Positions 2,009 to 37,494 of a stretch of DNA of 64,000 nucleotides are shown here, in pieces (within the stretch, counting starts at the first letter, position 1; each line of letters opens with the position of its first letter). The translations under genes were made by a program, and so were the position numbers. The stretch is taken from positions 36,207,025 to 36,271,024 of the forward strand of contig OX344763.1 of NCBI GenBank assembly GCA_947034895.1. The letters run 5' to 3'. The DNA comes from Rhytidiadelphus loreus (Eukaryota; Streptophyta; Bryopsida; Hypnales; Hylocomiaceae). The notes below the pieces were generated by a model. That model saw only the letters and a program-made list of their open reading frames with translations. It was not told the origin of the DNA and ran no database searches.

Positions 2009-2013
2009 TCTTT

Positions 2014-12309: not shown

Positions 12310-12318
12310 TATATAAGG
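12310..12318 (+). promoter_or_regulatory. TATA box candidate for the LTR-like element ORF
   Basis: TATATAAGG lies 107 bases upstream of the ATG at 12425. The related copy at 57.8 kb has GTATAAGAAG at a similar distance before its reading frame. Position and conservation suggest a core promoter, but no transcript evidence is available. Confidence 0.45.
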
Positions 12319-12424
12319 TGAAAACCTTAGACAAACTTCATCAGTTCAAAGTAATCCTTTGAGTTTTTAGAATTTGTGTTTGGATTTGGAGTTCGATATT
12401 AAAATGTCGAACTAGAGGGTTTTT

Positions 12425-12862
12425 ATGGAGTCACAAGATGTTGAGTCTGAACCTGAGGCGGAATTAGAGCTTTCCTTATCACAGTTGCCTCATCAGCCAT
12501 TTCAGCCGGCGATTTCTATACCATTGCCTACCTCTATCATAGATGAGGCCGGACCTTCTCGTCCGTTGAAGAAACCTTGGGTGGACCGTCGTTGGCATGA
12601 GAATCTTGATAGGAATGCCCGTGCTTTAGTGATTCTACTTCAAGTAGGATGTGTTGAGCCTGGTACACATGATGTAACATTCGAAGCAAGCTACGAGGGC
12701 CTGAACGAAGACCAGTATTTTTTTATGATGAGGCCAGACATAGAAGGTATTGGCCATCAACGTTGTTTGAAAGGACCAGTGAATCCTTTAACCAAAGCTG
12801 AACGTGCAGATTACGTGGCCAACATTGTCAGGCGCATCCTCAAGTTCTTGCAGATGGAATAA
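12425..12862 (+). CDS. Conserved 145-aa protein of the LTR-like element, function unknown
   Basis: ATG to TAA without interruption, 145 residues. The N-terminal third is acidic then proline-rich (SLSQLPHQPFQP, GPSRPLKKPW). The C-terminal part is compact and conserved: VILLQ, then EGLNEDQYFFM, GHQR, NPLTKAE and RRILKFLQME. I recognise no known domain, signal peptide or membrane segment. A decayed relative at 57947-58381 has the same length without net indels. Over the last 77 codons the two share about 46 residues, and some 29 of those use different synonymous codons. This means the family evolved under selection for the protein. It may be an accessory or gag-like factor; that is speculation. 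Confidence 0.6.
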   Translation: MESQDVESEPEAELELSLSQLPHQPFQPAISIPLPTSIIDEAGPSRPLKKPWVDRRWHENLDRNARALVILLQVGCVEPGTHDVTFEASYEGLNEDQYFFMMRPDIEGIGHQRCLKGPVNPLTKAERADYVANIVRRILKFLQME

Positions 12863-13166
12863 CGCTCTTCATCGACTTCAGTTTTTACCTCCATTGGATG
12901 TTGGTTGGAGTTTAGTATGTAATATATGTTTTGGTGGTTCATTTGTGTGTTAAAAAAAAAAAAAATGGGAGTTTAGATGAAGTTTACCACTTTATTTTGA
13001 CCTTAGAGGTTGATTGGTTTTAGAAATTGAATAGGGACTTACCTTTAGGTATTTTTCTTGAACCAATGAATGTTGGGAGGCCCATGTGAGGTGTACATGA
13101 GCTGACCTCACTTACCTTAGGGGTCTAGAAGGTAGGTAGGGATTTTCTTGCTTCCTCTAATTCGGG

Positions 13167-13228
13167 TTGGTGTGTGGAAGTGGCTTGGTGTGTGGAAGTG
13201 GCTTGGTGTGTGGAAGTGGCTTGGTGTG
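13167..13228 (+). repeat. 18-bp tandem repeat inside LTR-like element
   Basis: TTGGTGTGTGGAAGTGGC occurs three times head to tail, followed by a partial fourth. A minus-strand open frame across it is an effect of the repeat, not a gene. Confidence 0.85.
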
Positions 13229-13559
13229 TGTTTTTGATGTGTGTGTGAGAATGGAGGGAGAAGCCGAATGTTTGATCGGCGATTACGGTGGTTGTACAAA
13301 ACTTTTTGAAATGAAAATTTGAGGGTTTGTTCTTCTTGAGATTGTGCTTCTAAAGAGACATGTCTTGCTTGATTTGGAGTTGTGAGTAAAAAGTTATGAG
13401 CATGAGAGTGGAGGAGGATCTTTTGCCACCCAACGAAGAGGAGCAGAGATTCAAGCGGTTGCCAAAGCTTGTGTTTTTTTTGCTACATCTTTGAAACTTT
13501 CAAGTATTATAAAAATGTTTTATAGCTTTTCATATACTCATAACTTAAAGCTTTAGAAG

Positions 13560-13925
13560 TAGTGAAGAGAAAGTTATGACTTCTTGAAATAGGAGAGGTC
13601 TGTTGCCTTTCAAAAGAGAAGGCCAAGACTTTGCATGTTCGTAACTTATGGATAGAAGATTAGAATAGTTTGAAATTTAAGGAGAAGTTAATTTGTAAAG
13701 CTAGCTTTTCAAGAAGCTATTATATTTGTATTTTGAAGAAGAATTGAAGAAGATATAGAATTTAGAAGTAGAAGAGGTCTTCTGCCTTTCAAAGGAGAAG
13801 GCCGAGACTTTACTTGTCCATAACTTTTGGACAGTATCTTAGTTTGATTTGAAATTTTGAGGGGTGTTAGATTATTTCATTAGCTTTTCAAATTGCTATT
13901 GCACTTAGCATTTGGAGCTTGGAAA
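13560..13925 (+). repeat. Two ~200-bp internal modules of the LTR-like element
   Basis: Two diverged units each run through TCTGCCTTTCAAA.GAGAAGGC, a cataactt phrase and AGCTTTTCAA.. .GCTATT. The copy at 57.7-62.7 kb has at least three such units (58855-59390). The family therefore varies in module number. Sequence between the units is simple AG/AT-rich DNA. Confidence 0.6.
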
Positions 13926-14585
13926 CGTTTTTGGCAGTAGATCAAAGAACACAGCCAAATTAGAATTTCGTTTCATGTTTCTTTTACATCTTTTGAAGAC
14001 TTCAAGGTTTGAAGATTTGAAGACATGAAAATATGAAGACATGAAGATTCGTGTGTTGTGGCTTGTGGCTTATTATTCCTAGCCGGATTTGGAGGCTCGT
14101 TGTTATTTCTTTGTTATTCCTATCCGGATTTGGAGGGTAGTTGTTTTCATTTCTGCATTGTAAGCTTTGTTGCGGGCTTTGTAGTCATTTCATTATGACA
14201 ATACTAGCCCCGTTTTATGTTTGTGGCGACGAAGTGGGATTGATCACCCACATGGTCGATCTTCTATGTTGTTCCTACTTGTAAAAGGCGATACCTGGTC
14301 ACCGTGGGTTTGAAGTTTAGAATCCAATCTTTCGGACGGCTCAACTCGTCGACTGGCCGTCCCATTTTACCCGTCTGAGGCCTTGTTTTTTATCACACGC
14401 CTTTACCTTTGGCCCCATAGAGCCACCACAGGGTAGATCAATGGAAGATTGAAGTGAAGATCAAGCGAAGATTGAAGAAAAGATTAATTGAAGATTCAAA
14501 TATCGTTACTTGTCTTCCATTTACACTCACAACCTACAGCCAGACACCCCGTGTGTTCCCAAAGTGCACTCCTCTCTACCCGACA

Positions 14586-16549
14586 CCGGCATCACCAATG
14601 GGTACATCTAACTTCCTCTTCGTGCTTCCAAATATTTCTTCTCCTTCCAAATGGGGTATGCGACTTCCAACACCTTCAGATCCGGGTAGTGTATTCAGCG
14701 CCTCTGCAATTTTCTTGGGATCTCCGCTGCGTCTTGCAGCTCTCAATTTCAACTCCCCCTTTGATGGACCAGAGCCAGATGCATGTCCCTTCAAGTAAGT
14801 GCGATAATTTGTCATCTGCATTCATGCACGGATACTATCGTCGCAAGTGACATCAAACAGATTGTTTCCTCGGTTTCCAGACATTTGAAGCCACTTGTTA
14901 TGCACTGTTTCCAACAAGTTTCATGAAGGCATGTCAGCCATCTCCTCCAAACTCAATCCCTAAAAATTCCCCCCATCCAAGAAAAACCACATTCAATGGA
15001 AAAGAATAGAAGCAATTACCACTGGAAATTGAAAACTACTAAGTTCATGTACGGCCGAATTTGCAATCCTAGGCCTTCATAAGTAATTAGAAAAAATTAA
15101 CAGTTATATACCATAAAACACAGAAGACCAATAAATTCTAACATTTATTTGGCTATGCAGAAACAAGCAAATAATAAAAGTATTGCAGTGAGCTTACCAT
15201 TTGCATGAAGCCTCCCCACTGCCTATAACGGAAATGCCAAAATGCAAGCCAATGGTTCAAGTGATGAAGTGCATCTTCTGTAGTAGCTCCAGAAGATAAC
15301 CACCATGACCGAATTGCTAGGTATTTGGTCTCCGCGTCCTCCATATTCTTTGAATCTTTGTATTGCTTACATAATGAGGTGTGTTGCTGTTGGAATGCTT
15401 CCTTGATATACTTCTGTGTGTGTTTTTGAAGTGAAGAACTCTAATGCAACAAACAAGTTCACTCCCGATTTTCCATTTTCTGATTGGCAGAGCCACTACC
15501 ATAGATGATACGAACCGCATTCCAATTGGCCATAGCACTATCGGCCATAAACCCCTTGAAGTTTGGGTTTTCTATTCCGTATCGTGACATGACAATATTC
15601 AAACATTTCTAAAAAAGCACTTGAATCTGGATATCTTCTGATTGCATATCACATGTGGAAATGGTCATCACCTTTTTGTACTCGGGGTCATACACGTGGC
15701 AAGCCATTGTGGTTCAGTCCTTCACACGCTTCACGTGGTCAAACATCATCCACGCATTCTGTAGATTCCCTCTTGGTTGCATGCGCTTCACCAGATCCAC
15801 TCCATTGTCGGGTCCTTCTGTAAGCATCTTGAAAATGTACACCTTCTCCTTCCCTTGTCCAGGGAAAACGCTGTCGTGAATGAATTCGAACTTCGCCTCT
15901 TTTTTCATGGTCATAATGTTGTCGATGACGCCTCCACAGTTGTTTGAGCGTAATGAAGATATCACGTTGCGGATGTTCGGACTGCTTAAGTACTCAAAGC
16001 GGTCCATGACCTCTTCTAGTTTTTGTCCTTTCAACATCTTCTTCTCTCTCTCCTCATTGTGAAACAAATAGGTTGTTAGGAAATCTTTGCTAGCAGAGAG
16101 AGCAATTGCGGAGTTGGTGGCCAGAGGTGTTTTGGCTACCTGCTCCGCAATGAGTCCACAAATCTTCTTTGCAGAGTCTCTGTACATGCCTTTTGCTACT
16201 GGATGACAATGATCTCCGATATGAATAGCAGCCCTATTCATTTTTGGATTATCACTACAACAATAGTAAATTCTAGCACTACATGTACTCGGACACGTAG
16301 GTGTAACTTTGCAAAGTTTACAAACTAGCGTGCAATCTTTGGGAGCAGTATCCCCTACTGCAAAAGGAAAGGTAGTACACCCGGTCCACTCTATTTCATT
16401 GCGTTTTTTCGTCCTGCTCAAGTAATCGCACATTGGATTCAGACAAGCAAGATGACCAACGCAGTATGACTTACGAAACTTTAAGTTATCACAGTTGTGG
16501 ATATTCGTGGTCAGAAGTTTGCACCAAGGATGCCCATCATAGCGCTTGT
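14586..16549 (-). pseudogene. Transposase middle segment: zinc region, DDE core, intron
   Basis: Exon 16549-15198 reads on from the N-terminal segment with HPWCKLL, IHNCDNLKFRKSYC, GHLACLNPMCDY (a Cys/His-rich GCM/WRKY-like zinc region). It then has FPGQGKEKVYIFKM, MMFDHVKRVKD and FKGFMADSAMANWNAVR (likely two catalytic Asp), and AIRSWWLSSGA. A GT-AG intron occupies 15197-14960. The next exon carries VHNKWLQMSGN, MQMTNYRTYLKG and IFGSTKRKLDVP. Premature stops include TGA at 15714 (Trp in relatives), a TAG near 15612 and TGA near 14822. The upper border touches the CACTA element, with TGT duplication at 16547-16549. Confidence 0.72.
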
Positions 16550-16870
16550 CACTAGTAGAAAATGATGTCCAGATCAACAAAAAATCATCAATTTTTTGTT
16601 AATGTGGGCACTGTATCGACCATTTTCACAATTTTTTGTTGATTTGGCACAAGGTAACAAAATGGTTAAATTTTTTTGTTAATTTTGGTAGTACAACGTC
16701 CAAATCAACAAAACTATAAACACTTTTTTGTTCATTTTCACAATTTTTTGTTGAATTGGCACAAGGTAACAAAATGGTTAAATTTTTTTGTTACTTTTGG
16801 TAGGTCAACGACCAAATCAACAAAACAATCAACAATTTAACACTTTTTTACTCACAATTCTGTGTTTTTT

Positions 16871-17230
16871 GAACTCAGCAGACTTTGGTGACCTTTTTGA
16901 CATAGTAAAACACTTTTTTTGAAAAAACTTTGAACTAAGAAAGGGTAGACAATAAAGTTAAATTTCACCTCCAAAAATCCGTTTGACATTTGAAGTCTCC
17001 AATCAAAAGTTATAGACAAAATTCAGAACGGGTGTTTAAAAATGTCAACAAAAAGGTCCATTTCAACCCCGCTCTGAATTTTATTTATAACTTTTAATTG
17101 GAGACTTCAAATGTCAAATGGATTTTTGGAGGTGAAAATTAGCTTGATTATCTAACTTTTCTTAGTTCAAAGTTTCTTGAAAAAAAGTATTTTACTATGC
17201 CCAAATGGTCACCAAAGTCTGTTGTTCTTA
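16871..17230. repeat. Palindrome 1 in CACTA element
   Basis: The left arm runs from CAGACTTTGGTGACC through TTTCACCTCCAAAAATCCG. The right arm is its complement, from GGATTTTTGGAGGTGAAA to GGTCACCAAAGTCTG. The centre is near 17045. The arms are long enough for a transcript to form a long hairpin. Confidence 0.85.
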
Positions 17231-17323
17231 CAAAATACACAAAATTATTAATTCAAGAACTACATGTCTATTGTAGAGTTTGAATTACATTTATATTGTT
17301 TTTGCATTTTTTTTTCTTTTTTG

Positions 17324-17686
17324 GTAAGAACAGCAGGTTTTGGTGACCGTTTTGGCATAGTAAAATATTTTTTTTCAAAAAACTTTGAACTAAGAAAAGT
17401 TATACAATCAAGCTAACTTTCACCTCCAAAAATCCGTTTAACATTTAAAGTCTCCAATAAAAAGTTATGGACAAAATTCAGAGCGGGGTTGAAATGAAAT
17501 TTTTCGTTGACTTTTTTAAACACCCGCTCTGAATTTTGTTTATAACTTTTGATTGGAGACTTCAAATGTCAAACGGATTTTTGGAGGTGAAATTAAGCGT
17601 GATAATCGAACTTTTCTTAGTTCAAAGTTTCTTCAAATAAAGTGTTTTACTATGCCAAAAAGGTCACCAAAGTCTGCTGTTCTTAC
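17324..17686. repeat. Palindrome 2 in CACTA element
   Basis: This is a second copy of the same inverted unit, from GTAAGAACAGCAGG to CTGCTGTTCTTAC, with the centre near 17500. It is clearly related to palindrome 1, so the element contains a tandem pair of hairpins. Confidence 0.85.
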
Positions 17687-17745
17687 AAAAAAAATGGAAA
17701 ACAATTTAAATGTAATTCTAATTTTCATTAGAACATGTAGAATTC

Positions 17746-17944
17746 GGGGTGGCTCAATGGTTAGAGTCTTGGACCCCAACCGTGAGGTCCAAGGTTCGAA
17801 CCTCCACGGTGGTGGCCGCCTACGTGGCATTGGTGTGCCACATAGCGGGCTGCCACGTGGTGCGACGGGGCTCTGCCACGTGGCATTTAAAAAAAATTAA
17901 TTTTAAATTTTTTTTAAAAAAATTAAAAAAAAAAAAAAAAAAAA
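17746..17944 (+). mobile_element. tRNA-derived SINE
   Basis: The 5' part looks like a tRNA: A box TGGCTCAATGG (17750-17760) and B box GGTTCGAACCT (17793-17803), the RNA polymerase III promoter. A GC-rich body follows with two GCCACGTGG palindromes, then an A-rich tail of more than 40 bases. It is far more GC-rich than its surroundings and sits inside a CACTA element. It is not a functional tRNA: the anticodon arm is over-extended. No clear target duplication was found. Confidence 0.72.
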
Positions 17945-18102
17945 TTATTGACCAAATTAACAAAAATAGTAACAAAAAAATCAACACTTTCTTGTTTCAT
18001 AGTGTCCAAGTCAACACGTCCAAATCAATAGAAAATGAACTAACAAAATCAACACTTTCTTGTCTATTTTTTGTTGATTTGGACGCAGATTTTCTACTAG
18101 TG

Positions 18103-18925
18103 TGTCCATCCCTTCTAAGTTCTTGGCTGCAGAGGAAGAAGAACATGACCGGCATGGAGGCAACTCGAAGATGACATCACCATTGAAAATTGGTGGAAGG
18201 AATTGTACATGATAGTGTTCCATAGCATTTAGGTCCATCATGGACAGTTCATTTCGAGATCGATGCATCGTGGCTAGTCTCTTCAAACACTCCATAATGC
18301 TTACTCTATCGGTAGGAAATGGATGCAACGAAGGACGTGAAAATAAAGACGGCGATTGACTTTGTGAAGGGGTACTACAGATTGACTTCATAAGAGTCAT
18401 TTCTACCAAGGAAGTGTGGATAGAGCTTGTTTTCTTGTGAAGAATGAAGTCAGGAGACTCTCCTTCTGATTCACTAGATATTTCTATGATTGGATCTAAT
18501 TTCTCAAGTTTCACCTTCTTCAGTACTACGTGTTTTGGAAAGACCGGTTCAACTTCACGAGGTGGACTAGGTGAAACGGCGTGTGCGACATAAGGCATGT
18601 CTACTGTTGAATTATCGGATTGGCGGCTAAGAATCTCAGTAGAGGCAACTACAATAGAAAGAGGAAGCCCGTATGCTCTATAATTTCCAGGAGCAAGGTC
18701 CCAGCACTGCGTTCCATCTTCCACACTCCTTAAAACAGGAACAGATTGTTGTAATTGACTTGATTCAAACATCTTTTTTTCTTCTTCAACATAGATGGAG
18801 TCTTCTACAAATCTGAAACGGACATGGAGAAGGTGTGATAGAACTCTAGCACGTCCTCTATCATCTAATGGAAACACAATAGGGACCTCATGTCCATCTA
18901 CTCGAATGCAAGCCATCATGTGCAC
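18103..18925 (-). pseudogene. Transposase N-terminal segment
   Basis: The frame opens at ATG 18925 and runs to the CACTA border at 18103. It begins VDGHEVPIVFPLDDRGRARV, has a serine/acidic region (EISSESEGESPDF) and leads into the zinc region after the CACTA. The last residues before the border (SSSSAAKNLEGM) continue directly into the sequence beyond the CACTA. A few codons upstream of the ATG are also open in frame, so the start is provisional. The gene points away from the ParB-methyltransferase gene. Confidence 0.62.
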
Positions 18926-20643
18926 ACGTAGAGGAACTTCTAGGAAAAACGTCAGTGCATTCTACGTGGGAGATGAGGTACAACAAAACTTCTGGAGTAT
19001 GTACTTCAACCCCCTTCTTTTTATAGTTGCTATTCTAATTTGTTCATGAAGAAGCTTTTTATTGAGCCGCTTTATCAGAGCCACTTTTGATTCTATCATG
19101 TAATGCTATAAAGGAAATATCTTTGTCATTCCTTTCACGTTAATTAAGCTCTTTCATTAACAACTATATAGGATAATATCGAAACAGAAATAGGTGGCTA
19201 GTCAAGGACAACACTACACCCAAGCTACTCTATATCACCCTCAAAAGTATACAAGCTTCTTACCAAAACTGTAAGTCTACATACGTCAAGGAACACTTAA
19301 AGAATACAATATATTTTGAAGAGGATTACAAATACATCCCAAGTGTAATAATAATTATTAAATTAGAATTGTAATTCACTTGAATTACATTAGAGGTGTA
19401 CCATTACAATGTATCCATACATTGTGGTAAATTTTTTATCCTAAACAACTGTAATCAGCCCTTGTCAGGGTTGTACACTTCGACACCGCTACACCGCGAC
19501 AGACAGATGTTGCACGACATCTAGTAGAGCCCGCGTGACGTCAAGTTGACCAAACGTCAAGTTGACCAAACGTCAAGTTGACTTTAAAAAAAATCCTCCT
19601 TTGTTTACGATTTTGACATATTCAAGTCTTATTTTTATAAAGTGTCTCAATTTAATAAATACACATAACATTTTAAATTCAGGTTCATAATTATAGTGAG
19701 ATTTCAAAGTTTTTTTGGCTGTGAAAATGGCCCTACTCGACAACATGTCTAGTAAACTCGACACTTCGTGACACGCGACATGCGACGTCAGACGTCATAC
19801 ACGACGCCAAAACTCAAAAATGTGTCAGACAAGACAACCCTGGCCCTTGTCCATAATGAAGAAGGTGTAACTTTTGGAAGTTCTTAATATCCCATGTCAT
19901 AGATGATACGATTTTGTCAGAAAACTGCCATACAACTATCAAATCTTATTGAGATTTCGTTGGACTGTGCACCTACAGATTTATGATACAGTCGGGTTTC
20001 TTTATGGGTGCAATTCATGAGGTCGCCAACATAATGAATCTCTTGCTTTTAAATATTTTGATTTTTCCTCGTGTGAAATCTACCTCAAGACTTCGGGATT
20101 CTGTTGGACCACTTCAATGCTATATTGAATAAGCAAGTGAAAGTGGGCTACAGTTCACTAGTACTCGAAAATTGCAGCGATATTGACGGTGATGTACACA
20201 TGTCCTTATATTTCTTTATGAGCCTTTGAAAGGATCCAATGATCTGACATTATTCTTGGACGTACTTTGCGTGGGCTTAATCTCATCAACTATGACAGCC
20301 AATATAATTTGGTGGCGATTCCATATCTTCAATTTTAGAAGAGCAACAATTATCTGTACAGCACTCGTCAATTACCTGACACGCGATTGTCATCCCACCT
20401 AACATACACTTCATTTTTAAGAACTACAAAATAGGAAGATAGTGTGCCATATAGTATCCATTTCTCTAGGTTCAGTTCTTGCAACCACTTGTAGTTGATA
20501 TGTTTTGAGTCCATGTAGTCACCTTTTACCACATGCATGTAGAGGCCCAGCTACCTCATATCTTTAGTCCCAAGCACCGGAAGAAGTGGAAGAGGCATAG
20601 TTCTTTTTATTTCTCATCTACAAAGGCATTGAAGAGATCTAGG
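18926..20643. other. Divergent intergenic region between transposase and methyltransferase genes
   Basis: About 1.7 kb separates two gene starts that face away from each other. It holds a 377-bp hAT MITE (19466-19842) and otherwise AT-rich DNA. If the two genes belong to one transposon this should contain a two-way promoter, but I see no convincing core elements. Confidence 0.5.
19466..19842. mobile_element. hAT-type MITE
   Basis: Ends CAGGGTTGT and ACAACCCTG form the terminal inverted repeat. They are flanked by a perfect 8-bp duplication GCCCTTGT (19458-19465 and 19843-19850), the hAT hallmark. Inside, ACGTCAAGTTGACCAA is repeated nearly three times near 19545-19585. No coding sequence is present. 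Confidence 0.92.
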
Positions 20644-23600
20644 ATGACGAGAGGTAAGAAAGTAGTTTCAAGGACAGCGCAAAGTACGGGAGGAGATTCT
20701 CGAAAAGCTCTTACATTTGGATTTGGACATGTTGGCGGCCATGAAGATGTGCAAGTTAAAAATGTTGATGCGGTTCAAGAAATGTCCAAGGAGGCCAATA
20801 GTGAACAACAAGATGCAAGAGAAGTCGAAGTAGTTAACGTAAGACTCCTTTGCCCCCATACTATTATTTAGAACTATCCTTTCTTGATATTCATCTAATG
20901 ACTTCAAAATTTTAGACAATACGCTTATGGTTTAGAATTTATTCATCCCACATCTCCTACTTCTCCAGAACTTCTCAATAGACCTTATTTGTGGACAAAG
21001 GTTGGGGGATTTCACATAGAGCTCGTTCTATAAGATAATACAATTGTAGACATATATTATTTTGAAACAAAGATTTTCTATTGCCTTCACTTATGTATAG
21101 AAGGTGCTCATTGTAAGAGGTGAGCCATATTAGAACCCTATGCTCTTCATTTTTAAGTCATAAAAATTCTGGAGCTACTTTAGGAAAGCTTTATTAATTC
21201 ATAAAATCAATTACGCTATATGTCAATTACACATGTTTTGGGAACCAAAAATACATCTTTGCACAAAATTATGTCCCAAGTGCCGGTTTAGGGTTCCCAA
21301 GATGGACATAATGACGACTGATGCTGGTGCCGATGCTTGCGTCGATGCTGGCACCGAGGTTGTTGCCGACGTTGGCAATGCTGGCGCCGATTTAAGTCGC
21401 GTAGGTTAGGGAATCTGGAGGGTAAGAAGCTGGTGGGCATCCCAGAAGGAATGTGAGGTGGTGGGCATGCTTGGTGACTGGGATAAATTAACTGCTTGAA
21501 TCGACATCCTTTGTTGAACCTCCATCAATGCGTTTATAATCTGGCGTCAAACTTGGGAATTTTAGAATTTTCAAATTAAAGTGATTCATGCATGCCACAT
21601 GTGGCGGTTAACTAGTGCAAGTTTCCACTGAAGACTAGAACAAGTCTTTCCCCGCATGTATACAAGAACCACGCAAGCCCGAATAATGATTTTGAAGCAA
21701 CCTTCGATTGTGAAGCTGACTTTCATACTCTATTCTCGTACTTGCAATAGGGAAGGATGACAAGAAACACGTGGAGCCGCTCGGGACAAGCCGAATCTCC
21801 TTTGCTTGCAGCTCGCGGAAGGCAGACCCCAAGTCGGGTGAATGCACAGGTATGCACAGCAGCTTCCGATCCCACCTCTCAACCTCTCATCTTTTGATGT
21901 CGATCTCCACGGTTGGTGACACAGTCTGAGTGTGTTTGTTTCACGGGAAGAATTGGTGATCCCGTTTTTGCATTTTGACTGCCTCCCTAGTTTCAAAGCC
22001 TCCATTGCTGACCGTAGACCGCCGAACCGCTTCCCCCGCTTCAAGAGTTTGCGAGCTTGAAAGTATGCAGGTTGACCAGCTTCGAGGTCGGCAGCGTCTA
22101 GCCGAATCTCAGTCCCCCCAACAGAATCTCAGTCCCCAAAACATTCGGCACGAGAAGATCCGTCGAGCAGAATCTCAGTCCCCCAAATCATTCGGCACAA
22201 GGAGATCCCCGAGCTGAATCTCAGTCCCCCGAATCATTCGGCACGAGGAGAGCCCTCGAGAAGAATAGCAGTCCCCCGTAGTCCCTATCTGATCGGGTCG
22301 AGACTGAAAACCCATTTCCGGGGGTCGGACAGGCCCTCCCCAGGGTTTAGTCGGATCTGATTGATCCCATGAGAGGGTCAGTCGGACCTCAGGAAACAAG
22401 TATAGGGCAGATGAAGTTGCGCCATTTGCTGTCTGAAATTTACAATGGCCTCCTTCGAATACAGATACCTTTTGATCGACTTGTTTCCTTCAAATGCATG
22501 CGTCTCCTTCCGATCGATGCGGTAATCTCCTAGGCATCTAGGTGACTACGGTTCAGGATTGAGAATATGTTTGTGTGAATCTGCAGGTCATGTTTATTTT
22601 TGGTCATCAGTCGAGTTCTGGTAGCGTGTTAGTCGGGTTGTGGTTATGTGCTCGTCGGGTTGTAGTTGTGGGTTTGGTTACGGGTCACTTGGATTCGAGG
22701 TTTTCGCAGGCTGCTGGTGGTTTACAGAAAGTGACGTTGCTTGAAGGTTTGAGATCTCGAAGGAGGGCCTTATTTGTGACCATTATTTCTAGAATGAAGT
22801 TCATGTTTACCAAAATTGCGTGTCAGCGCTTTTTCTAGAATGGGGTTCTTGTTTATCGAAATTGGGGGGTACGGAGGCCTATCACTGGGGGTCATTCGGA
22901 TCCGAAAAATCCCAAACGTGGATCTGTCTGACCCCCAGAAATGGGTTCAAAGCTTATTGCTTCGGCCGTCTTGCTTCGACAGTAGATCATAATCGTCGTT
23001 CGTCCTCGTTTGTCGACGTGGGTTGTCATTCGTTGTCATTTGTCCAAGGTTGTTTTCATTCGTCTAAAATGACCATGATCCAATGACATTTTCGTTTTTC
23101 ATCCATCCAGGTTCTAATTTTCTTTTTCATTGGTGACACTTTGTCCAACTTTGTCCATTCAACCTTGTTTGTGAAGCCAAATTTATTTGAAATTGTATTT
23201 TAGTGTTCTAATACGAATTATAAGTGTTTAAAAACGTGATCACGGGATAATGAGGACCAATTTAAGGGGGTCCACCAAACTCATATCAAGGATCAGTCGG
23301 ATCCAACTAATCCATTTTGAGGATTAGCTTGACTCCTTAAAAGAGGTACCCAATTTTGACCATTAAAGTTTATGTAATAGCCTTTCATTGAAGGTAGTTA
23401 GTTTTGTGATTGGAAATCTGGACTAATAGCGTAGGTTATATCAAGTAATAATGAATGTGAAGAAGTACCAATAAATATTTCAATTCATTTTTTGAGTAGA
23501 ATCTTCTTTACTTACTTTAATTTTTAAAAATTGCAAATCTGATTCTATTCCAGCTTCATAGAAATTCAGATCATTTTCTACTCTTTATTTTTTTTGGAGA

Positions 23601-26600
23601 TTATATGTTCTGGTACCACATTTTGGAGGTCAAGCAGAAGGTCTAATGACATTAGTCGGATCCGACTGAAGTCATATGGCTTTCTGTTGGACCCCCAGAA
23701 TGTGGTAACATCCGATTATTTTCAATCAGAAGTGTAGTTTTGAATTAGAAGGATGTTTCATTATCATATTTTGAAACAAATAATATGCTTTTGAATTGTG
23801 TTTATGGTTTTTATTTTAGACTGAAGAGATGTGGGCTTTTTTTGATTGATTGACAGGGTCTTGATCGTAGGCATGCATCGTCCTCTATGATATTGCCTAC
23901 CATTGTGCCAGTATCTCTTGCACCACGCCCTTCACAGCCTTACACCCCAACAAACATGGAGGTCTCCAGCGATTCAAAGAAAGAAGATACTGTAGTCCAG
24001 GACTTGGTAAGCTTTGATGATATTATGGATGCCACTGATCGTGCTACAGATACTCTAGAGCATAAAATGCATAGTCGGGTCAGCGACCATGATGCATCGA
24101 GACCTCCTGGTAGTCTCAGTAAGCCTATTCTACGAAAGTGTAGGACACCTGTTTTCTCTCCTGAGAGTTCCAAAACTGAGTATAGCTCGGATAGTGAGAT
24201 GTCTTGCTTGATTGATGGTCCAATGTTTGTAGACACTTGCTAGTGTGTTTCTAGCACTAATCAAGCGGCGCATGAAGTAGTGCTTATTCTTCTAAGTTCA
24301 GATGACGATGAAGATATAGAGATAGATTGAGTCCATTTTCTTGGCCTTTTTTTGGGACATATACCACTGACCCATGCATGTTGAGTATACCTTTAATGGT
24401 ACCGCCTATATATATAATGATTTTTTTGATCTTCCAATTTTGTTATACTTCCACATGCATAAAGAAATTATGGGTCTCATTTTTATCACATTTTCTGTAT
24501 TTTGAGTTTCATACCCTTATTTCTTTTCCAAGAATCATGAACAATTTTGTTTTCTCGTTTCTCAGATGGATGTGTCCCCTGCCAATTTATCACAAGTGGA
24601 GAAAGTAATGGAGACTCCAGGGACCGATGACATAGCTCAGCCGGAGATTGGAGATGAACGTGAAGGTGATGAAGACTTTGTGGAGGACAAAGAGAACGAG
24701 TTGTTGGAGGATGAGCTTCGAAGACTCTAGAAAGTAGATTGGGTGGCTACAATTTCATCTCTAAGAATGAAGCCAGATCAGTTGTTTCGGTTGCAAATAC
24801 CTCTTTGCAGGCTTGTGGCAATGCCTATGGTGCGTCCAACCCTCTCCTATGACCTAATAAAGCTTGAGCAAGAATTCGTGAACGGGTACCGAGATGGAGC
24901 TGCAGTATTCTATGTGACAACTACGAATGAGGCCGGAGAGAGCGCGGAGTTTTCTGAGATTGAAATGGAGGAGTGGGGGCCGCTGTGGAAAGAGAAGAAT
25001 GACATCTTCAACGAGTATGTGGAGTCTGTGCCTGAGCTCAAGTTCTTGAAGAACTTGAAATTCTATGTTTGTGATGGGAATCATCGTCGCCTAGCATGGA
25101 TGAACCACATCTCCAAACTTCATTCTACCAAGCGAGACTGGCATTGTTCAGTTGACTCCATCGTGTTGGATACAAAGGGGAAGATTGAGTTGGTCATGCA
25201 TGTCATGCATGACATAAACAAGTGAGTTTTCCTGCCAGAATTTATTTTTCCTCTCATTTTTTTTTCTCTCTTCATTTTTTTTCTCTCATCATTTTTTTTC
25301 GTCTATTCATTTTTTTTCCATTTGCTTTGGTTAACATTGAGGAAGTGTTCTTGGATCAATTGCAGATCTATGGAAGACTCCCATGTGAAGACCAATCTTG
25401 TACACACGTTGTATCGAGTTCAGAAGTACGGTCTTCTTCCTATGGAAAGGTTCAATGAGATGTTGAGACCGTCAGAGGTCAAACGATGTGGAGCCTTGAA
25501 AGTGAAGAAAACTTGGTATTCAATGCCAGTGGAGGTGTTCACATCCTTTGTTTTTCGGGTGAGAACCAGGTTGTGCACTTCCTCTTTTTTCAATTTCTTG
25601 TTTATATTTTTACTACTATTATTTATTTATTTACTCACACTTTGTGAATTTGCACAACAAGAAATTGTCCAAGCAGCAGATGCTGCAGTGAGAAGGTACA
25701 ACAAGGTCACCCCACTTGAAGAGAAGAGTCATGAAGGTGTCGCAAATGCCATGAGACTCGGAGCAAAAAAAAAATACCAAGCTATATGTCAAAATGATCA
25801 AGTTGGTAACCGTAGCCAATCCCGTTCACGGACCTGAGTTCCTAGCTGAAGTAAGTGTTGTGCTACCAAAATGACTTTATGGCGCTAATCTATGTTGAAG
25901 TTCAAATTCAAATTCGAATCTATCAATATTCTTGTATAGGTGGAAAAGCATTGGAGCAGTAATGAGGTATCGGAGATGACCCTAGAAAAACTCCAAATGG
26001 TGGCCACTTGCAATACAACTCCGTTTCACAAGATCAAGTTCTTGAAGTGGTGGAACTTGTCATTGCCATCATGGGATGCTAGGCAGTTTCCAACACGACC
26101 CGTATCGGAGACATTGCTAGGGCCCTTCTTGAATAGATGTGTATGGTACACAAGGGTAAGTGCTCACATGCACGGACTCTATCATTTCATAATGGAAGTC
26201 TTTTATTTGAATGGAATTTCAAATTATTTAAATTCTACCAATAGGTTGAAATCCACAGAAATTATAAATGATTTTGCATTTCTATAGATCGAAGATGCAG
26301 CTGTGGAGTACTTTGAGGATGTCGTAAGGCAAGACAACATCACGGTAAACATGAAAGTTCCACAGTAGCCTGAGTTCTTAGTGGATTACATAGAAGGATG
26401 TAGGAGGAAGATCTGGGATCAAGGATTTTTGGCAGTTCTTAGGGGAGCCAACTATTTCAAAAAAAGTGACTCCTTCATGACTTATGATGGATCTAAACGG
26501 GCAGTTCGAAGAGTTCTTTTCCGGTATTACTCTACCATTACGTATTTTTCTAATTTCGACCATGTGCAATGCCTTGAGTTTCTAATGAGTGATTTAGTGT

Positions 26601-28923
26601 TGAAGCTTATGATAAATTAATTGACTTGATAATATATTAATCCTTCTCCCTCCCTTATTCGATTGAAATGTCTTGTTGAATGACTTCTTTTGTTCATTTT
26701 GTAGTTACTTCAAGCATGAGCTCGAAGCAAAAGGAGCAATAGTGCGGAGCGATCTTCCTCCATTCCTTTTCACATGGTTGGACCGTAGTTCTGCGGATTG
26801 CATGTACACTGCAAACCAACTCCGCACTTATACCACGGCTCATCTCACTGGTGGAGGCTGGTACATTGACTGTCCGGTCTCCTACACTCATCCGTCAGAA
26901 GTTCATTTTAGGAACTCATTGGAGGGCATTGGCGCAATTGACATGGAAGTGGATGAGTTTGCAGGACTCACTGACAAACAGAGAAACATGGTCATTTCAA
27001 AGAGGGAAGCCAATGATAGGAAGAAAGGGGCTCGGTTCCAAGTTCTTTTGGAATCGAAGGAGAAGAAGGAGAAGGAAAAAGAGGAAAAATTGAAGGCCAA
27101 GTTGGCGGAAAAAGAGAAGGAGAAAGAAGAAAAGCTCCTGTCCAAAGGCAAGAAGAAGGACGACGGTGGTGTTGTTGTTCCAGCAGCATCGACGTTAGAC
27201 CAAGGCTCTCAAATGGAAGGCGGCACTCAAAGCGGGGTTACGAGGAAGGCAGCACTCATGCAACTAACTGAAGACGTCATCACTCAAGGGACACAAGTTA
27301 TCGTTCTTGGCGACGATGAATTGGAGAAGACTAAGGATTTAATCCTCAATATTTCAATTGAGGACCTTGTGGAGGATATGGAGATCGAGACGCCAACTTG
27401 GTATAGAGAGGTCATGGACTTCTGGAAAAAGGTATGTTTTTAATGACTTTGAAATTGCAAAGCCCCCTATGAAGTCTTGTATAAAGTTTAATATATGAAC
27501 ATTGTGTACATGGGTTATTGATGACACAAAGTATCGTCACGTTGCAGCTGTCGGCAGAGAAGTCTCGCATGTTCTACGGAGTGCCAAATGCTAGGCCTAG
27601 AGTAGACCTAGTATTTTTTGATTGCCCGGAAAACTTGCTTGTGCCGGGACTATCTTTTCCATCGACAATAGTGCCAATTTGGAACGCAGACTTGGAGAAT
27701 GAGGGTCTTCAAGCGGCATTTCAGTTTGCATTCAAACATTTGCAGGACCATGGCTGTATGATAATATTTTACTCATGGATCACCGATGTTAGAGGCAATA
27801 TTGCAGGATTGTGTGACACTTACCGTATGGTGAAGAAAAAAGAGTGGTGGGGCATGAATCGTCTCCACTTGACCTCAGCATTGGACACTGTCTAGTTCTA
27901 CGGTAAACTTCGGGTTTTTAGTTTCTGAAGTAGTGAGTGTCCTTTTCTAATGGATAATGTTATATTTGCATCTCATTTATATTTTATTTTTATAATTGCA
28001 GACGCAGAGGTTTGGAATTAGCCTCCTTGTGAAGGACTTTGGTGAGAAAGGGAAATCCAACTTCACTTTCAAACGCACATCAATGATGAAAAAGGCTGGT
28101 GTGGACATTGGTCGAGACGACATGTTGATGAACTACACAAAGGAGGATGACATGGCAATGAAAGACAGAAAGCTATGGCGGGGGGCTCGTGAAAAAGATC
28201 CCTGATTTTATTAACTCCTCATCAAAGCTACGACTGATGAAGGAGATCTGGTTCTTGATTGTACAGCATCAACAAGTGAATAATCTATTTCATTATTATC
28301 TATTCAAATTGAAATTGTATAAATCATCTCTTTCACTAATATTTTATATTCCCTTGACATCAAGTGCATCTATTACAGCTTGTCGTGGCACAGGCCGCCA
28401 CATAGTGGCTTTGGAGGAGAACAGTGACATTTTTGACGCCCTCCTCAAACCCATGAGGAAATCTGCTCTAGTGGTGGTGAAGGCCCCATCTAAACCACCA
28501 ACCTTTCAAGACTCACATGATTCAGATGAAATGCCTGTGGTGCCTCGGAAATTTGCTCAAAGGGGAAAATTCAATAAGTAAGTTTGCATATATCGAAGTC
28601 TTTCTTTCTATAGAAATATTTGTGTCTTAAAATTCTAATATTGTGTCATATTTGTTTGTAGCCATCAAGGATTGATGTCACCAGATTGGATGATGAAGAA
28701 ACGAAGTCTCCTCTACAGTCCAGAGAAGAGTTTTGATCTTCCACTCTATGCTGAGCACATGGCCACAACCTTTGCGGATTTTGGTTGCCATAAACCAAAA
28801 CGCCGGAAGGAAAGATATGCTCTAAATGTTCTACAGTTTATAGATGGATTAGCATCGGAGGGTAGAGAGACTTCAAAGTCGTCTCTTAATGAGGATTCTG
28901 CGACAGAATCCACTGCAATTTAG
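20644..28923 (+). pseudogene. ParB-like / beta-class DNA methyltransferase fusion, 12 exons, decayed
   Basis: Exons (approximate): 20644-20838, 23857-24330, 24566-25221, 25366-25558, 25661-25850, 25940-26155, 26288-26523, 26705-27431, 27548-27902, 28002-28275, 28365-28577, 28662-28923. Most introns are GT-AG. A ParB-like motif CDGNHRRLAW lies at 25070-25099. A Lys/Glu-rich coiled linker occupies 27055-27155. The methyltransferase follows: motif IV-like VDLVFFDCPE (27600-27631), then WRGAREKDP (28176-28202), then motif I-like VLDCTAST and ACRGTGRHIVALEEN (28251-28420). Order IV before I is that of beta-class N4-cytosine/N6-adenine methyltransferases. The C-terminus has KPKRRKERY, a possible nuclear signal. 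In-frame TAGs (24241, 24728, 26366, 27893) and frameshifts (near 25770 and 28203) disable it. The start at 20644 is the second of two in-frame ATGs (the other is 20533). The role in the element is unknown. Confidence 0.72.
21270..23150. repeat. GC-richer insertion in intron 1 with tandem repeats
   Basis: Intron 1 (20839-23856) is much longer than the other introns. Its middle is less AT-rich than its surroundings, suggesting an inserted element whose ends I could not find. At 22097-22262, units of about 50 bp share AATCTCAGTCCCC and CATTCGGCACGAG. Further on, variants of GTCGGATCCGAC and GACCCCCAGAA recur (22335-22395, 22890-22940, 23280-23330, 23650-23700). No protein is recognisable. Confidence 0.5.
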
Positions 28924-29639
28924 ATTCATGGAATAGACATATTTCATGAGTCAATCTATTATGTTTAGATTTTATTTATGATTGGATTTATGTGTTTCAT
29001 GGCTATATATAGAATGTCATTTTCTGTTCTTGGTTTTTTCATTGCGTGATTTCATTCAAACTTGATCACTATTGCTTATTGCAATAAAGTCTCATAGCAA
29101 AAAGTTTTATTTGACTTGCAATTCTTTTATATGAACTCACATTTTTCCAAAATGCCAATTCCCTCGATCCACGGTTGTAGGTACCTCATCATATGTATCG
29201 GAAAAAAAAAAGATAGGCTTACAAGCTCATAGGCTCACAGGCTCACATACTAGCAACCTTGCTGAAAATTATAAGAAGACAGGGGGGAGGGGGGAGGGAA
29301 TGAAAATCCAATTAAAAATTTTAATTGGATTTTGGGTGCATTGTGACATAGTTTGTTACAATACACCCAAAAGTGGCTGTAACAGCCATCCCCACTACCT
29401 CTAAAGATTATCTCTAAAGGTTATTGGTGCTCTATCTAGAGTAATTTCTCTACTTCTATCATCCATGGTAGTTTTCATCAACTTCCTCTAGATGTCACTA
29501 TTATTAGTGATGAAAAATTGAGGAGGTTGGGTCACATTTATTTATTTATTTATTGTTGGATGGCCTTGCTACAATCATTCATGTGCTAAAGCAAGTTAGG
29601 GCTCGGATAACTATCAATCTAGTCTATTTGCAGACTTGA
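28924..29639. other. AT-rich DNA after the methyltransferase gene
   Basis: The first ~80 bases still resemble the sequence after the second methyltransferase copy (41964 onward). Then there is no gene. An AGGCTCAC short tandem lies at 29215-29245 and a G-rich run at 29282-29299. No terminal inverted repeat partner of the left end was seen. Confidence 0.45.
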
Positions 29640-32537: not shown

Positions 32538-35500
32538 AATATCACCCCAAATTGGATTTGCTCTTCAATCTCCTAGCAGGAATCTTTCATCTTTTCCAAC
32601 TCGGACTTGATCTTCACTAGCTCTGCAGGCACTTCCAACTTGGTATGAAGAAGCTCCCAGCTTGATTTTTTTGATATCTTAAATCTTCAAGTCCTTTTTA
32701 AATTGGGTTCACCAACACTATAGTCTCCTCGGTCTTTAATCTTCCCGAATCGGTTCTCACAGCTTTAACTACCAACTTGAGTCTTATCAGCATTTCCAAC
32801 CACCAGAGAATCTTCTGCCACCAACTTGGAACTAACTTCTATCACATCACAAATCTTCACTAAATTTTCCTTTTTGCAGAATGGACACTTCTTACAGTCC
32901 AACTTGGATTTACTTCTTTTAATACCATTTGACTCCATTACACTCAGTTCAATCACTACTTAACAGATCGACTAGGAATTTTAATACAAACAACCTCCAA
33001 ACTTCACCAAACCAATTTGGAAAAAGCCTTCAAGACGTTGTGCATCCCACAGCACATGCAAACAAATCACAGACCCAAATTGGACACATACACGCAACCA
33101 CAACCAACACACATCCCAATTTGGAATACATCCTCACACAAGCACGCCACAATTCGGCTTGAACTCAAATTATATTACCGAATTGGCAATTAAATCACCA
33201 TTTACAATTTTATGTTTTTCAAAAACTAATTGGATACACTCCAAGACTACATCATCCAATTACTCCAAATTGGATAATATCACTTTTCATCACCATTTAG
33301 CATTAACACCATTAGGAAATTTCTAGCTTATAATTTTCACTCAAACTATCTCAGAAATTTCTTCCATCACATCAACCTTCCGATTTGGAAATTCTATTTG
33401 CTATCACAACAATTCTACTCTCTGAAAACTCATGCCAAATTGGATATCACTCTATTGCTCCAAACTGAGCTCACATGTAACATCTACTCGGAATCTTGTA
33501 GTATACAAACTCTTCAACTTCCGGCAGTTACCAAATCTCACCACAATCAACTTAACCCCTAAAGGACCAGGGCCGTTCTTCTGTCAAAAACTACTCAAAA
33601 CTGCCATTTTTGCTGCATTCATCCAAAAAAACAAAAAAATACTTTTTTTAGAATCTAACCGTAGGATCTTGTACTTTACTAGTCTAGTATCATGTGGTAA
33701 AATTTTCATGGAGTTTGACCGTACAGATTGGAAGATATTAGCATTCAAAGTTGAAAAAAGAAAGTTTTTCTCAACACTAGCCTGCAATTTCAGATGACTT
33801 TGAATGCCATTTGGGGAAAAAAATTACACCATGGACCTTGAATTTAAAATTTTTTGTGTTGAAGAATTGAGTTGAAAGTCTAGAATTTAAAAAAAAAAAA
33901 AAACACGATTGATTTCCATTCTTTAAAAAATTGTTCAATAGAAGTAGGTCCAAGATTGAAAGAAAAACTAAATCTTTAATAGCTCTAAAATGGGATTGAA
34001 ACACAATAATCTCAACGGTGAGATTGTTCTAAATAGAAAATTTAACCTTGTTAAACAATTTTTGTTGAAAAATTGTGAAAATTGCATTCAGAATTGAATC
34101 CTATAAGTTATTTTTTCAAGAAGATGCTCAAATTGCCCGAAAAACAAGACTGTTCATAACTTTCACATTACTAATCCAAATGGAATGAATCAAAGCTTCA
34201 CATGTAGACAAAAATATGATCTTTAAGAAGAAAAAAATTAAAAAATTAATTTCAAATTTTTGTAGATTTATTTTTCTGCCCGGTGACGTGTAAATTATGT
34301 TTAAGATGCTATAACTTTTGCTCTCGGGCACCAATTGAAATAAAATTTATATTCCCACGAAGCTCATAAGTTTTCCTATCTTATAAGAAAGTTTCAAAAA
34401 AATTCACTGAAAATTGAGATCATAGGAACTTACCCGAAATTCATTTTGTCCCCCGAGGGGACAATGGTCCTTTAGGGGTTAAGCAATCACTGCACTTTTC
34501 CAAATAGGAAATTAATTATTACAGTGACTCACCATCCTTGCACACCTTCCGATTAGGAAAACTTGAATTCTCCTAATTGATAGTCTCCATAACCTGCATA
34601 ACTTTCCTAATTTGGAACAAAGCCATGCCTAGCATCCATGCTGACAGATTTAGCTTCTCCAATTAGGACTCGCATACACAATCAAACATTCACACATAAC
34701 CAAGCAAAACCCATTTGGCAAAATACACACACAAGAAAATAGAAAAACACAGCTCCAACTTGGATGGGACACGACTGGACTCTCTCACAGACGGTAAAGG
34801 AAAATAACTGAGAAAATCAACCAAATAGGAAATCAAAACCAGAGGTTGCCAAACTCCAAATCGGCCTGCTAATTGTCATCTACAACAACCAATTTGGAAC
34901 TGCAGCGCCAACTGCCACATCCTTACAAACCGCACTAATCTCCGACTTGGTTGGCCACCTTCTCCGATTTGGAACAAGACTTACTAACTGCACGATAAGT
35001 GACAGTTCTATTAGGAAAAATAAACCTCTCACTCACTAACTGGCTACCAATTCGTCACCCATTTGGAATCAGCCCAGTCAGCCGCTCCTTCCAAATATAA
35101 ATCTCTTATCAAATCAGAAGATATCCCATCCAATTAAGAATCTATTCATTCTTCTTTTACTCACTCCATTCCAACTTGGTAAAATGCCAATTGGCTAACA
35201 AAGTCATTCACCTCCCATCTTGGACTACAAACTCAAAAGAAAATCATTTAAGAAACACACTCCAATTTGATAAAAATATACAAAAGTACCAAATTGGTAA
35301 ACAAACACCACAAAAATATGTCAAAAACATTTAAAAAGTCTTAAAAACAAACACCAAAATAAAAGTTTAATGACCAATTAGGTGATCTACATAGTCTCAC
35401 TCCCACTTGTTTGCGTCCCTGCAAACATCTACTTGGCATGCCTTTTTGTCAATCGAGTAACTGGCACCAACTTGAGCCCTGGATCTTCCTCCTCCATACA

Positions 35501-36915
35501 CAACCTCGTAGCCAATTTGGAACGCTCCTGCATGACCGACTTTTGCCTGTTATAAAAATTCTTCATTGGCCCTGCACGTGTTCCCATTTCTTCACAAGCA
35601 TCAAAAATCATCACATTATGAGCTCCCGGTAGAAACTGGGTGATGCACATTAACTCCAATGTTCGCATCCATCTTGTTGAATGGTAATGCAACTTGGAAA
35701 AAATCTCAACATCGGTGCTCAGTCTTGTTCCCACCCGATAATCCACCACAAATTGGTAGTTATCACACAAGTATGCCAAGATCCCTACAAAAACACTCGC
35801 CCTAAAGTAGACTAGATCTCTATGATACTTATGCTTCGATGCAAATTGGGAATACGCATCTACACACTCTTGGACAGTATCAAATCTGCCAAGTATCTTC
35901 GGCTAGTTATACCACCTTGAATCCAATTTGGCTTTAGTCGACCACAGATATCGGTGTGAACATGGACAAAACCGTGGATCTGATGACACCGCAATTGGAG
36001 GTTTTAGAGTCCGAGTGGCCTTCTCCGTAAAGTCCATTACATCCATCGCTATAATTAGGGGTCTTCTGACATCAGCATGATCCTTAACCATCCATAACAA
36101 AGCTTCCCAACTCGGAAACGGTTGATCCTCAATCTCATCAAATAGCCTATCATAATTTCCCAAATATTGATCATCCCAACTTGAGGAAATAGGAACAGAT
36201 GGTATTGACCATGTAACCAACTTTGACATAAAACCCGACGGCATGGAACTCTCCTCTCCTATTTGTGGCTGCCTCAAGAACAACTTTGTAGAAAAATCCC
36301 AAATTAGAATATTTTGTAGCACCTTTACCTTAATCTTCACAGCCAATCGGGCTTTGGCCATTTCGAACTTGTTCACGTAAGCAGCGGGATGCACATCCAG
36401 GACTTGACCTCTAATAGCTCGTTCTTACACATTGCGGACCATTTCAAATAACCAATCTTGATTCTGGAATTTTTTCTCCAAATGGTATAAAGTCGCCATC
36501 CAAGTATTTTGGGAGACTGATCCTTTCATCTTAGAAGATGAGGCCATCGCTCCCACCGCCTCGGACACACCTTCTGTTAGTTTCTTCCCAACTTGGAGAC
36601 GTTGCTTCCCTGTGTAAGACATTGCGACCTTGCGCCTACGACATAAAACCGACTCCAACTCGGAATAAAATAAAAAAACTCGAGCTCCATAATCCCCGAT
36701 TAAGGTGAAGGCTAAGGTATTGTCCTCCAGTAACACATCTCCCCTTCCCACCATTTCTGCAAAGAGATTTTCACTCTTAAGTTGAATTGCTCTCGTCCAA
36801 ATTGCCTTGAATTTTGATTTAGAAATGTATTCTCTAAAGGAAAGGCATGTATACAGGAAAAAGATCTCTCTCTCCCATGCATACGCAAACTCCAAACTGT
36901 CTGTAGGTGGAATCA
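32538..36915. repeat. 4.4-kb tract studded with palindromic CCAANTTGG motif
   Basis: The 9-mer CCAAATTGG/CCAATTTGG/CCAACTTGG, or a one- to two-base variant, recurs roughly every 30-90 bases from 32538 to 36915. It continues through the pseudogene at 35429-36916. It is absent inside the inserted MITE 33556-34478. Exact copies include those near 32820, 32898, 33011, 33075, 33113, 33433, 34890, 35170, 35290 and 35513. I take the tract to be one ancient element with a reiterated protein-binding site; its ends are not defined. Confidence 0.55.
33556..34478. mobile_element. piggyBac-like MITE with TTAA target duplication
   Basis: Termini CCCCTAAAGGACCA and TGGTCCTTTAGGGG are perfect inverted repeats. 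They are flanked by TTAA at 33552-33555 and 34479-34482, the piggyBac target. The element is 923 bp with no coding sequence. A second, partial copy lies at 61054-61282. The insertion interrupts the CCAANTTGG tract cleanly. Confidence 0.88.
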
Positions 36916-36916
36916 A
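35429..36916 (-). pseudogene. Unidentified ~496-codon protein with two in-frame stops
   Basis: A single minus-strand frame runs from ATG 36916 to the stop at 35429, broken only by a TAA near 36422 and a TAG near 35903. The three parts read as one globular protein: FAYAWEREIFFLYTCLSFRE, VCRRRK-like basic stretch, PSWEALLWMVKDHADVRRPL, FCPCSHRYLWSTKAKLDSRW, AYLCDNYQFVVDYRVGT. I recognise no family. Length and setting would suit a gag-like or other structural transposon protein, which is speculation. The upstream side is cut off at 36917 by CACTA-derived DNA, so any promoter is gone. CCAANTTGG motifs occur within the coding part. Confidence 0.6.
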
Positions 36917-37494
36917 TTCGGAAAGTCATCATGTAGTTACAAATGACCCCTTTTTTTAATCCTTTTCTGAAATCTAGGATTATATTTTGAAATCTAGAAA
37001 ATGTGAATATTATTTTTTGAAATCTAGGATTATATTATGAAATCTAGGAAATGTGAATATTTTTCTTCTGAAATCTAAGATTGTATTCTAAAATCTATGA
37101 AATGTGAATATTATTTTTTAATATCTAAAAGATTTGAAGATTATTTTCAAGTTGTGGTGAAATGTGCAAAATGAGTACACCATATATCATACACCACATA
37201 CATGATTCATACATCATACACCATATACATGATTCATACATCATATACCATATACAAATACATGATACACAATACACTATATTTTGCATATGTGTCAAAT
37301 GGATTTTCAAGCCATTTAGTATGTGAATACAAAAAGTTCAAATAACAAACCTTTAATACAAGTGGGTGATAGAAGGCAAGACAAACCATGTAGAATTTGT
37401 AAAATTTTGATGCAATAGTAGAGTAGTGATGTGCAAGTCATTACGTAGTCGTGTTAGAGTAAATCGCAATCAAAATAGTAGAGTAATGATATGG
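36917..37494. mobile_element. CACTA-derived fragment with ~50-bp tandem repeats
   Basis: The segment is closely similar to 59772-60680 inside the CACTA at 59504-62220, including the GAAATCTAGGATTATATT tandem (three to four units here) and the CATACATCATACACCATATAC stretch. It is broken at 37494 by the LTR-like element. Neither CACTA terminus is present. Confidence 0.75.

Follow-up and report, generated by a model that had tools for sequence, protein, structure and literature searches.

A transposon-borne gene with ParB and methyltransferase folds and an altered motif IV, under purifying selection in a probable plant genome

What is the function of a protein that joins a ParB-like domain to a DNA methyltransferase (MTase) fold within a eukaryotic transposon, and does it methylate DNA? 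This question is raised by a 12-exon gene located on the plus strand, at positions 20644-28923, of a 64,000-nucleotide stretch of contig OX344763.1 (hereafter, the window, that is, the whole stretch analysed). A preliminary interpretation made from the letters of the window (hereafter, the sequence-only reading) proposed a twelve-exon gene with the same start and end, both of which proved correct, and suggested that a transposon had captured a prokaryotic or viral DNA modification gene with which it might mark its own DNA or escape silencing. Here we show that this gene recurs as the second gene of a DNA transposon of 14-15 kb, divergently oriented with respect to a SWIM-type transposase, and that its catalytic motif IV is altered. 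With moderate confidence, we propose that the protein is a DNA-binding accessory factor with an anti-silencing or helper role and not a classical methylase producing N6-methyladenine (6mA) or N4-methylcytosine (4mC).

Copies of the gene were searched for across the genome that holds the window (407 Mb, 489 contigs). The protein search with the MTase exon yielded 150 listed copies of 1,109 candidates, the protein search with a transposase piece 133 listed copies of 1,418 candidates, and the DNA search with the ParB exon region 278 first-look candidates. We compared 30 gene loci from the genome (L009-L038), two complete elements from neighbouring stretches (A and B), and the window copy (w). Among proteins, exon-size profiles retrieved 35 relatives at E<=1 and 479 at E<=10, the best 120 of these 479 being denoted P0036-P0155.

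Methyltransferase fold and altered catalytic motif

The protein contains a ParB/Srx-fold domain, the fold of the ParB N-terminal domain, followed by a middle region of about 450 amino acids (aa) that includes a charged stretch, and then by a beta-class N6/N4 DNA MTase fold in which motif IV precedes motif I. Both folds and the motif order, anticipated by the sequence-only reading, are borne out, the MTase part by sequence and structure matches, and the signature stretches lie where it had placed them: exon 3 contains CDGNHRRLAW, exon 9 contains VFFDCPE, and LDCTAST/ACRGTGRHIVALEEN, which resembles motif I, straddles the junction of exons 10 and 11. The bdelloid rotifer N4CMT is among the sequence and structure matches of the MTase part, and alignment with CcrM pairs DPPYNL of CcrM with DCQENL of the family.

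In N6/N4 enzymes, the prolines and the aromatic residue of motif IV hold the flipped base. The canonical form, [DNS]PP[YFW], is missing in this family, where the corresponding residues are mostly DC[PQH]EN: the intact copies L022 and L034 have DCPEN and DCQEN, respectively, and the window copy has CPENL. A search expression that required the flanking D and N gave 16 matches among loci L009-L038, namely, CPENL (9), CLENL (2), CQENL (2), CHENL (1), CPKNL (1), and YPENL (1). Genome-wide, the word FDC[PQH]ENL occurs at 280 places, not each of which was checked as a gene copy (reversed-word control, 0), and the word FDPP[YF]NL at none (control, 1), canonical motifs with other flanking residues not having been searched for. 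Among the 50 places of FDC[PQH]ENL on C1, 21 are inside a listed MTase exon and eight more have a listed transposase no farther than 40 kb away; the exact word is present in 21 of the 29 listed C1 MTase exons and not in the other eight. Of the 35 relatives, 13 extend over motif IV, with DCQENL in nine, DCPENL in three and DIPENF in one (a fourteenth match to the expression, in P0031, is located elsewhere in that protein and was dropped), and [DNS]PP[YFW] was found in none of the 35, including these 13.

Motif I, which in the beta class has the form FxGxG and serves S-adenosylmethionine (SAM), reads TA[SA]TG here, with one of the two glycines retained (YGVG or CGVG in P0029-P0031), and the acid after motif I (IVALEE) is retained as well. 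Because the motif IV prolines and the aromatic residue are gone, ordinary N6/N4 transfer, and with it classical 6mA/4mC catalysis, is unlikely. Binding of SAM by the MTase fold may persist, given the single glycine of motif I and the acid that remain. Self-marking by N6/N4 methylation, as originally suggested, is not supported by the motif IV sequences of L022 and L034, the zero count of FDPP[YF]NL in the genome and the 13 relatives; the sequence-only reading had itself named intact relatives with degenerate catalytic motifs as evidence against it, and the intact copies are of this kind.

ParB-like domain and protein relatives

At the level of sequence profiles, the Pfam ParB model PF02195 had no match among 120 members of the family, the ParB-like phrog_1033 was weakly matched in two of six cases (best E of 0.11), and ParB was not among the matches of a PDB sequence search. 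Weak Pfam matches in the same 120 members were to DUF1015 (8/120, best 0.002), KMP11 (8/120), and DndB (1/120). The only named relative among the profile matches is a moss protein, P0009 of Ceratodon purpureus, which is the one ground for regarding the host as probably a plant. A search with the full-length L019 product against 5.8 billion proteins returned nothing at E<=0.01. A separate observation is that the relatives of the ParB exon profile, P0036-P0155 (best 120 of 479, with E of 2.4e-67 or better), have no Pfam family or descriptive name. A tblastn search of phages gave 754 records at E<=10 with weak matches to the MTase part; in the best 20 of the 754, the best E was 4e-5 and identity was 21-25%. 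No gene named ParB was present in the two phage neighbourhoods inspected, and neither the protein profiles nor the phage tblastn search revealed the donor of the gene.

Intact copies, selection and linkage to the transposase

In L022 (with L033) and L034, the ten large exons join into frames of 1,101 and 1,104 aa, respectively, with the final stop only, and L035 is open for 1,071 aa from an inner start. With the lengths of exons 1 and 2 (65 and 50 aa) taken from the window, the intact protein comprises about 1,215 aa. The MTase exon is free of stops in 116 of the 150 listed copies. The ratio of nonsynonymous to synonymous substitution rates (dN/dS) between L034 and L035 is 0.081 overall, 0.056 in the ParB part and 0.115 in the MTase part; the values for L022/L034 (0.106) and L022/L035 (0.124) come from pairs in which dS is saturated. 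Purifying selection on the gene is strong.

A divergently oriented transposase is located within 40 kb of 90 of the 150 listed MTase-exon copies, at a median distance of 10.95 kb; four of the 150 have one on the same strand. Random placement gave a mean of 1.2 and a maximum of 5. The analysis uses listed copies only (150 of 1,109 and 133 of 1,418 candidates), so the remaining 60 copies may still have a transposase. The same linkage is found for 32 of the 61 listed copies that make up the divergent set (identity of at most 68%), which rules out a recent one-off capture. The sequence-only reading of the gene as spliced, multicopy and transposon-borne is supported.

Exon anatomy and the window copy

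Exon 1 (20644-20838; 65 aa, starting MTRGKKVV) retains its ATG and GT donor in most of the copies shown, with ACG at the position of the ATG in L012. After intron 1 (20839-23856), exon 2 (23857-24006; 50 aa, donor GTAAGC) continues in phase 0 into exon 3 (24566-25221), which encodes an acidic N-terminal part and most of the ParB-like domain; the end of this domain (EDSHVKTNLVHTLYRVQKYG) is in exon 4 (25366-25558). Exons 5-8 (25658-25850, 25940-26155, 26288-26523, and 26705-27431) encode the middle region with the charged linker. Exon 9 (27548-27902) encodes MTase fold with VFFDCPENL at the motif IV position, and exon 10 (28002-28275) the fold as far as LDCTAST; exon 11 (28364-28577) supplies the remainder of the motif I region, and exon 12 (28662-28923) the C-terminal part, the tail of which, ASEGRETSKSSLNEDSATESTAI, is similar, together with the stop, in L022, L034, L035, and L036. 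All exons are on the plus strand.

The window copy itself is a dead relic: exon 3 is interrupted by a stop at 24728-24730, exon 7 holds one stop and exon 10 two, exon 5 is frame-shifted, as is exon 9 near its end, and the acceptors of exons 5 and 11 read AA. For the ten large exons, copies only 63-65% identical in protein have the same GT-AG sites, and the splice sites of exons 1 and 2 are retained in a comparison among closer copies only. Substitutions between copies concentrate at one codon position in exons and not in introns; in exon 1 this signal is weak, beyond 28000 it is based on one copy, and the exons beyond 28000 are supported instead by the frames retained in divergent copies. Exon 3 was treated as internal because the ATG at its start is replaced in L035 and an acceptor precedes it in w, L022, L034, and L035. 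Chance or artefact as the origin of the gene signal is ruled out by the codon-position signal, the conservation of splice sites and dN/dS.

The frame of exon 2 runs past the donor (24007-24332, plus strand) to a conserved TGA, with an acidic tail ending in EVVLILLSSDDDEDIEID. The codon-position signal covers the interval from about 24120 to 24332, and the tail was found in all 12 copies shown; the extension is interrupted by a TAG at 24241 in the window copy, and L019 and L020 likewise have an internal stop. Reading through the exon 2 donor could possibly yield a second product, a short acidic isoform with the same N-terminus. Separately, three hydrophobic-acidic motifs were observed at 24276-24332, in exon 8, and in the N-terminal part of the transposase (18014-18961, minus strand); VVLILLSSDDDED, VIVLGDDE, and PIIEISSESEGE resemble SUMO-interaction motifs. 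Farther along the window (40818-42029, plus strand), the last exons of another, divergent gene copy are present as a fragment, 85-90% identical to L035.

Intron 1 of the window copy contains a tandem repeat of 3.4 units of 46 bp (22122-22277), and other copies contain different repeats. Of 21 copies, the intron was delimited in 15 and not in the other 6; a tandem repeat is present in 14 of the 15, with units that often differ from copy to copy, and the repeats are not clearly denser than in the surrounding sequence. We treat the functional relevance of these repeats only as a lead.

The transposon

The alignment of elements A and B to the window starts close to position 1 and runs as far as 29261; sequence split by nested insertions in the window is continuous in A and B, which have net lengths, calculated from the end positions, of about 14.7 and 14.1 kb, respectively. 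In the window, the transposon (1-29261) consists of the pieces 1-1004, 11863-12169, 14584-16550, 18103-19466, and 19843-29261, separated by insertions at 1005-11862, 12170-14583, and 16551-18102 relative to A and B, and at 19467-19842 relative to A, L010, L011, and L013. The right terminal inverted repeat region (29213-29261, plus strand) contains repeated GGCTCACA and terminates in CTAGCAACCTTG; the element ends are inverted and share CA..G..GCTAGC.TG.GAGC. Inspected by eye, all three elements for which both ends were read are flanked by 10-bp target duplications, perfect in B (CTTTGCCCAA) and L022 (ATACACCTTC) and with one mismatch in A. The left end of the window element lies upstream of the window; neither it nor the target duplication was located in the preceding 1.3 kb, of which just the 106 bases adjoining the window belong to the element. 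Locus L037 was part of the comparison by which the element was delimited.

The transposase is encoded on the minus strand. Its C-terminal piece (298-930) shows, by eye, a SWIM-type CxC..CxH pattern, and an N-terminal open reading frame piece (15714-16598) a zinc-finger-like Cys/His pattern, also by eye, with its first residues entering the insertion at 16551; a further N-terminal frame (18014-18961) is truncated by the insertion 16551-18102. Among the 133 listed genome copies that were scored, open transposase frames reach 787 aa. The Mutator-like element (MULE) transposase model PF10551 had no match in the transposase pieces. Genome-wide, PF10551 matches 58 places at E<=1, of which 32 exceed the cut-off, and these are apart from the listed transposase copies: the nearest of them to the 133 listed transposase places is at 9.9 kb, and the others are more than 31 kb away or on contigs without one. 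Target duplications are given as 8-11 bp for MULEs (PMC6446971) and 8 bp for KDZ/Zisupton (PMC12730594). The 10-bp duplication and the SWIM pattern, not PF10551, suggest that the transposon is Mutator-like; the sequence is also compatible with an affiliation with KDZ/Zisupton or Sola.

The nested insertion 1005-11862 (plus strand) carries retrotransposon genes, probably of the gypsy type, with reverse transcriptase, RNase H, and integrase domains at 8072-10789. Within another nested insertion, at 16865-17690, we observed two 380-nt arms with 88% complementarity; parts of this insertion match stretches of several related elements. Outside the element, the minus strand of 35429-36925 has three long open frames next to one another, none with a Pfam match, perhaps another transposon gene.

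Possible functions of the protein

The pair of folds, selection on a protein that lacks the canonical motif, and the transposase gene so often found beside it point to an accessory factor acting through DNA binding. In this view, DNA would be bound or clamped by the ParB part, perhaps with a nucleotide-dependent switch, and the role of the MTase fold would be to read DNA or to bind SAM; by analogy with VANC of the Arabidopsis VANDAL elements, the protein might act on its own element and remove silencing. Such an anti-silencing or helper role exerted by DNA binding appears to fit the data better than methylation. A more specific version, in which a ParB-type, nucleotide-switched clamp would load on the copy-specific repeats of intron 1 and, jointly with the catalysis-dead MTase fold as a reader, keep silencing off, with the short form tuning the process, we regard as distinctly improbable.

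The closest rival, unlikely in our estimate, is that the protein is a transposition helper that bridges DNA or binds the ends for integration, similar to mudrB of maize MuDR, and plays no role in silencing. The gene recurs next to the transposase as a second gene, and MULEs often have a second open reading frame, such as mudrB, mutB or vanB/vanC (PMC6446971), both of which speak for a helper; however, no datum separates this explanation from anti-silencing. The excess of transposase candidates (1418, by protein) over ParB region candidates (278, by DNA) might mean that some elements lack the gene, which would count against a helper, but these two counts come from different types of search, and a protein search with the MTase exon gave 1109. 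Quite unlikely, in turn, is an active modification enzyme that binds the element and methylates adenine at N6 or cytosine at N4, marking the copies and keeping them open. This was the proposal of the sequence-only reading and is that of the Ectocarpus authors; the domain pair is shared with phage ParB-N6_N4 MTase fusions (PMC12704722) and algal proteins (PMC12477816), and the MTase fold is retained along with the acid on the SAM side, at a dN/dS of 0.115 in the MTase part. Such an enzyme is, however, hard to reconcile with a motif IV devoid of the double proline and the aromatic residue, with the 0 FDPP[YF]NL places against 280 FDC[PQH]ENL places in the genome (other flanks not searched), and with the lack of [DNS]PP[YFW] in all 13 relatives that cover the motif. 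The least probable explanation, to which we give very little credence, is that DC.EN endows the fold with a new reaction, for example, attack of the cysteine on cytosine C5. Strong selection would agree with this, as would the retention of the cysteine and of the glutamate, each in 15 of the 16 copies recovered with the search expression; but the cysteine is absent from P0029, a distant relative that reads DIPEN, and from one genome copy that reads YPENL, and the site corresponds to DPPY of CcrM, a position different from that of motif IV in C5-MTases. The DNA-binding accessory factor remains the explanation that we prefer.

Relation to known systems

Among literature titles and abstracts, the same domain pair within a transposon was found only in PMC12477816 and not for a land plant, references 50 and 51 of that paper not being covered; passages of PMC3493329 and PMC3671162 contain nothing on ParB-methyltransferase transposon proteins. 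A passage of PMC12477816 describes ParB-methyltransferase proteins in transposons of brown, green, and red algae, so that the class is known and the idea of the sequence-only reading is not new. The protein of the giant DNA transposon Sola1-1_Ec32 of Ectocarpus and its algal kin resemble the family described here in having ParB-like and DNA MTase domains in about 1,100 aa, with the gene of Sola1-1_Ec32 antisense to the transposase (PMC12477816, same passage). Compared with the text of that paper and not with its sequences, the present family shows the features of the algal class, that is, a transposon-borne protein with ParB-like and N4/N6 MTase-like domains encoded antisense to the transposase. 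In contrast to Sola1-1_Ec32, the target duplication here is 10 bp, the transposase is not shown to be of the Sola or EnSpm type, the host is probably a plant, and motif IV is altered, whereas the passage predicts an N4/N6 enzyme.

Other systems share single aspects with this transposon. VANC binds motifs, often in tandem repeats, of its own element, which leads to loss of methylation (PMC5735166); like the gene described here, it is a spliced extra gene beside a transposase, accompanied by variable non-coding tandem repeats, but the two have no common domain named (VANC: DUF1985/DUF287) (PMC5735166, PMC10398659). The TET/JBP genes of fungal DNA transposons similarly represent a DNA-modifying fold captured by several superfamilies, but belong to a different enzyme family that is thought to be active (PMC12730594). 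Phage ParB-N6_N4 MTase fusions combine both folds in one protein, in viruses of prokaryotes; the comparison concerns folds and not motif IV (PMC12704722). The bdelloid rotifer N4CMT is a beta-class MTase in a eukaryote, but unlike the protein considered here, it is tied to real 4mC (PMC8885841). N4CMT is not known to be fused to ParB or to reside in a transposon.

Earlier reports of this class from land plants may exist. Absent from the passage of PMC12477816 are a host with a moss as the one named relative in the family, the 10-bp duplications, the full exon anatomy, the selection, the copy number, and the altered motif IV. The known range of a little-known class of transposon accessory proteins thereby grows past the algae to include what is probably a land plant, as well as a different kind of element. 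A caution is that the role of DNA methylase presumed for the class is improbable in this branch at least, even though selection retains the fold. With hundreds of copies in the genome, the question of anti-silencing can be approached through long-read methylation data alone.

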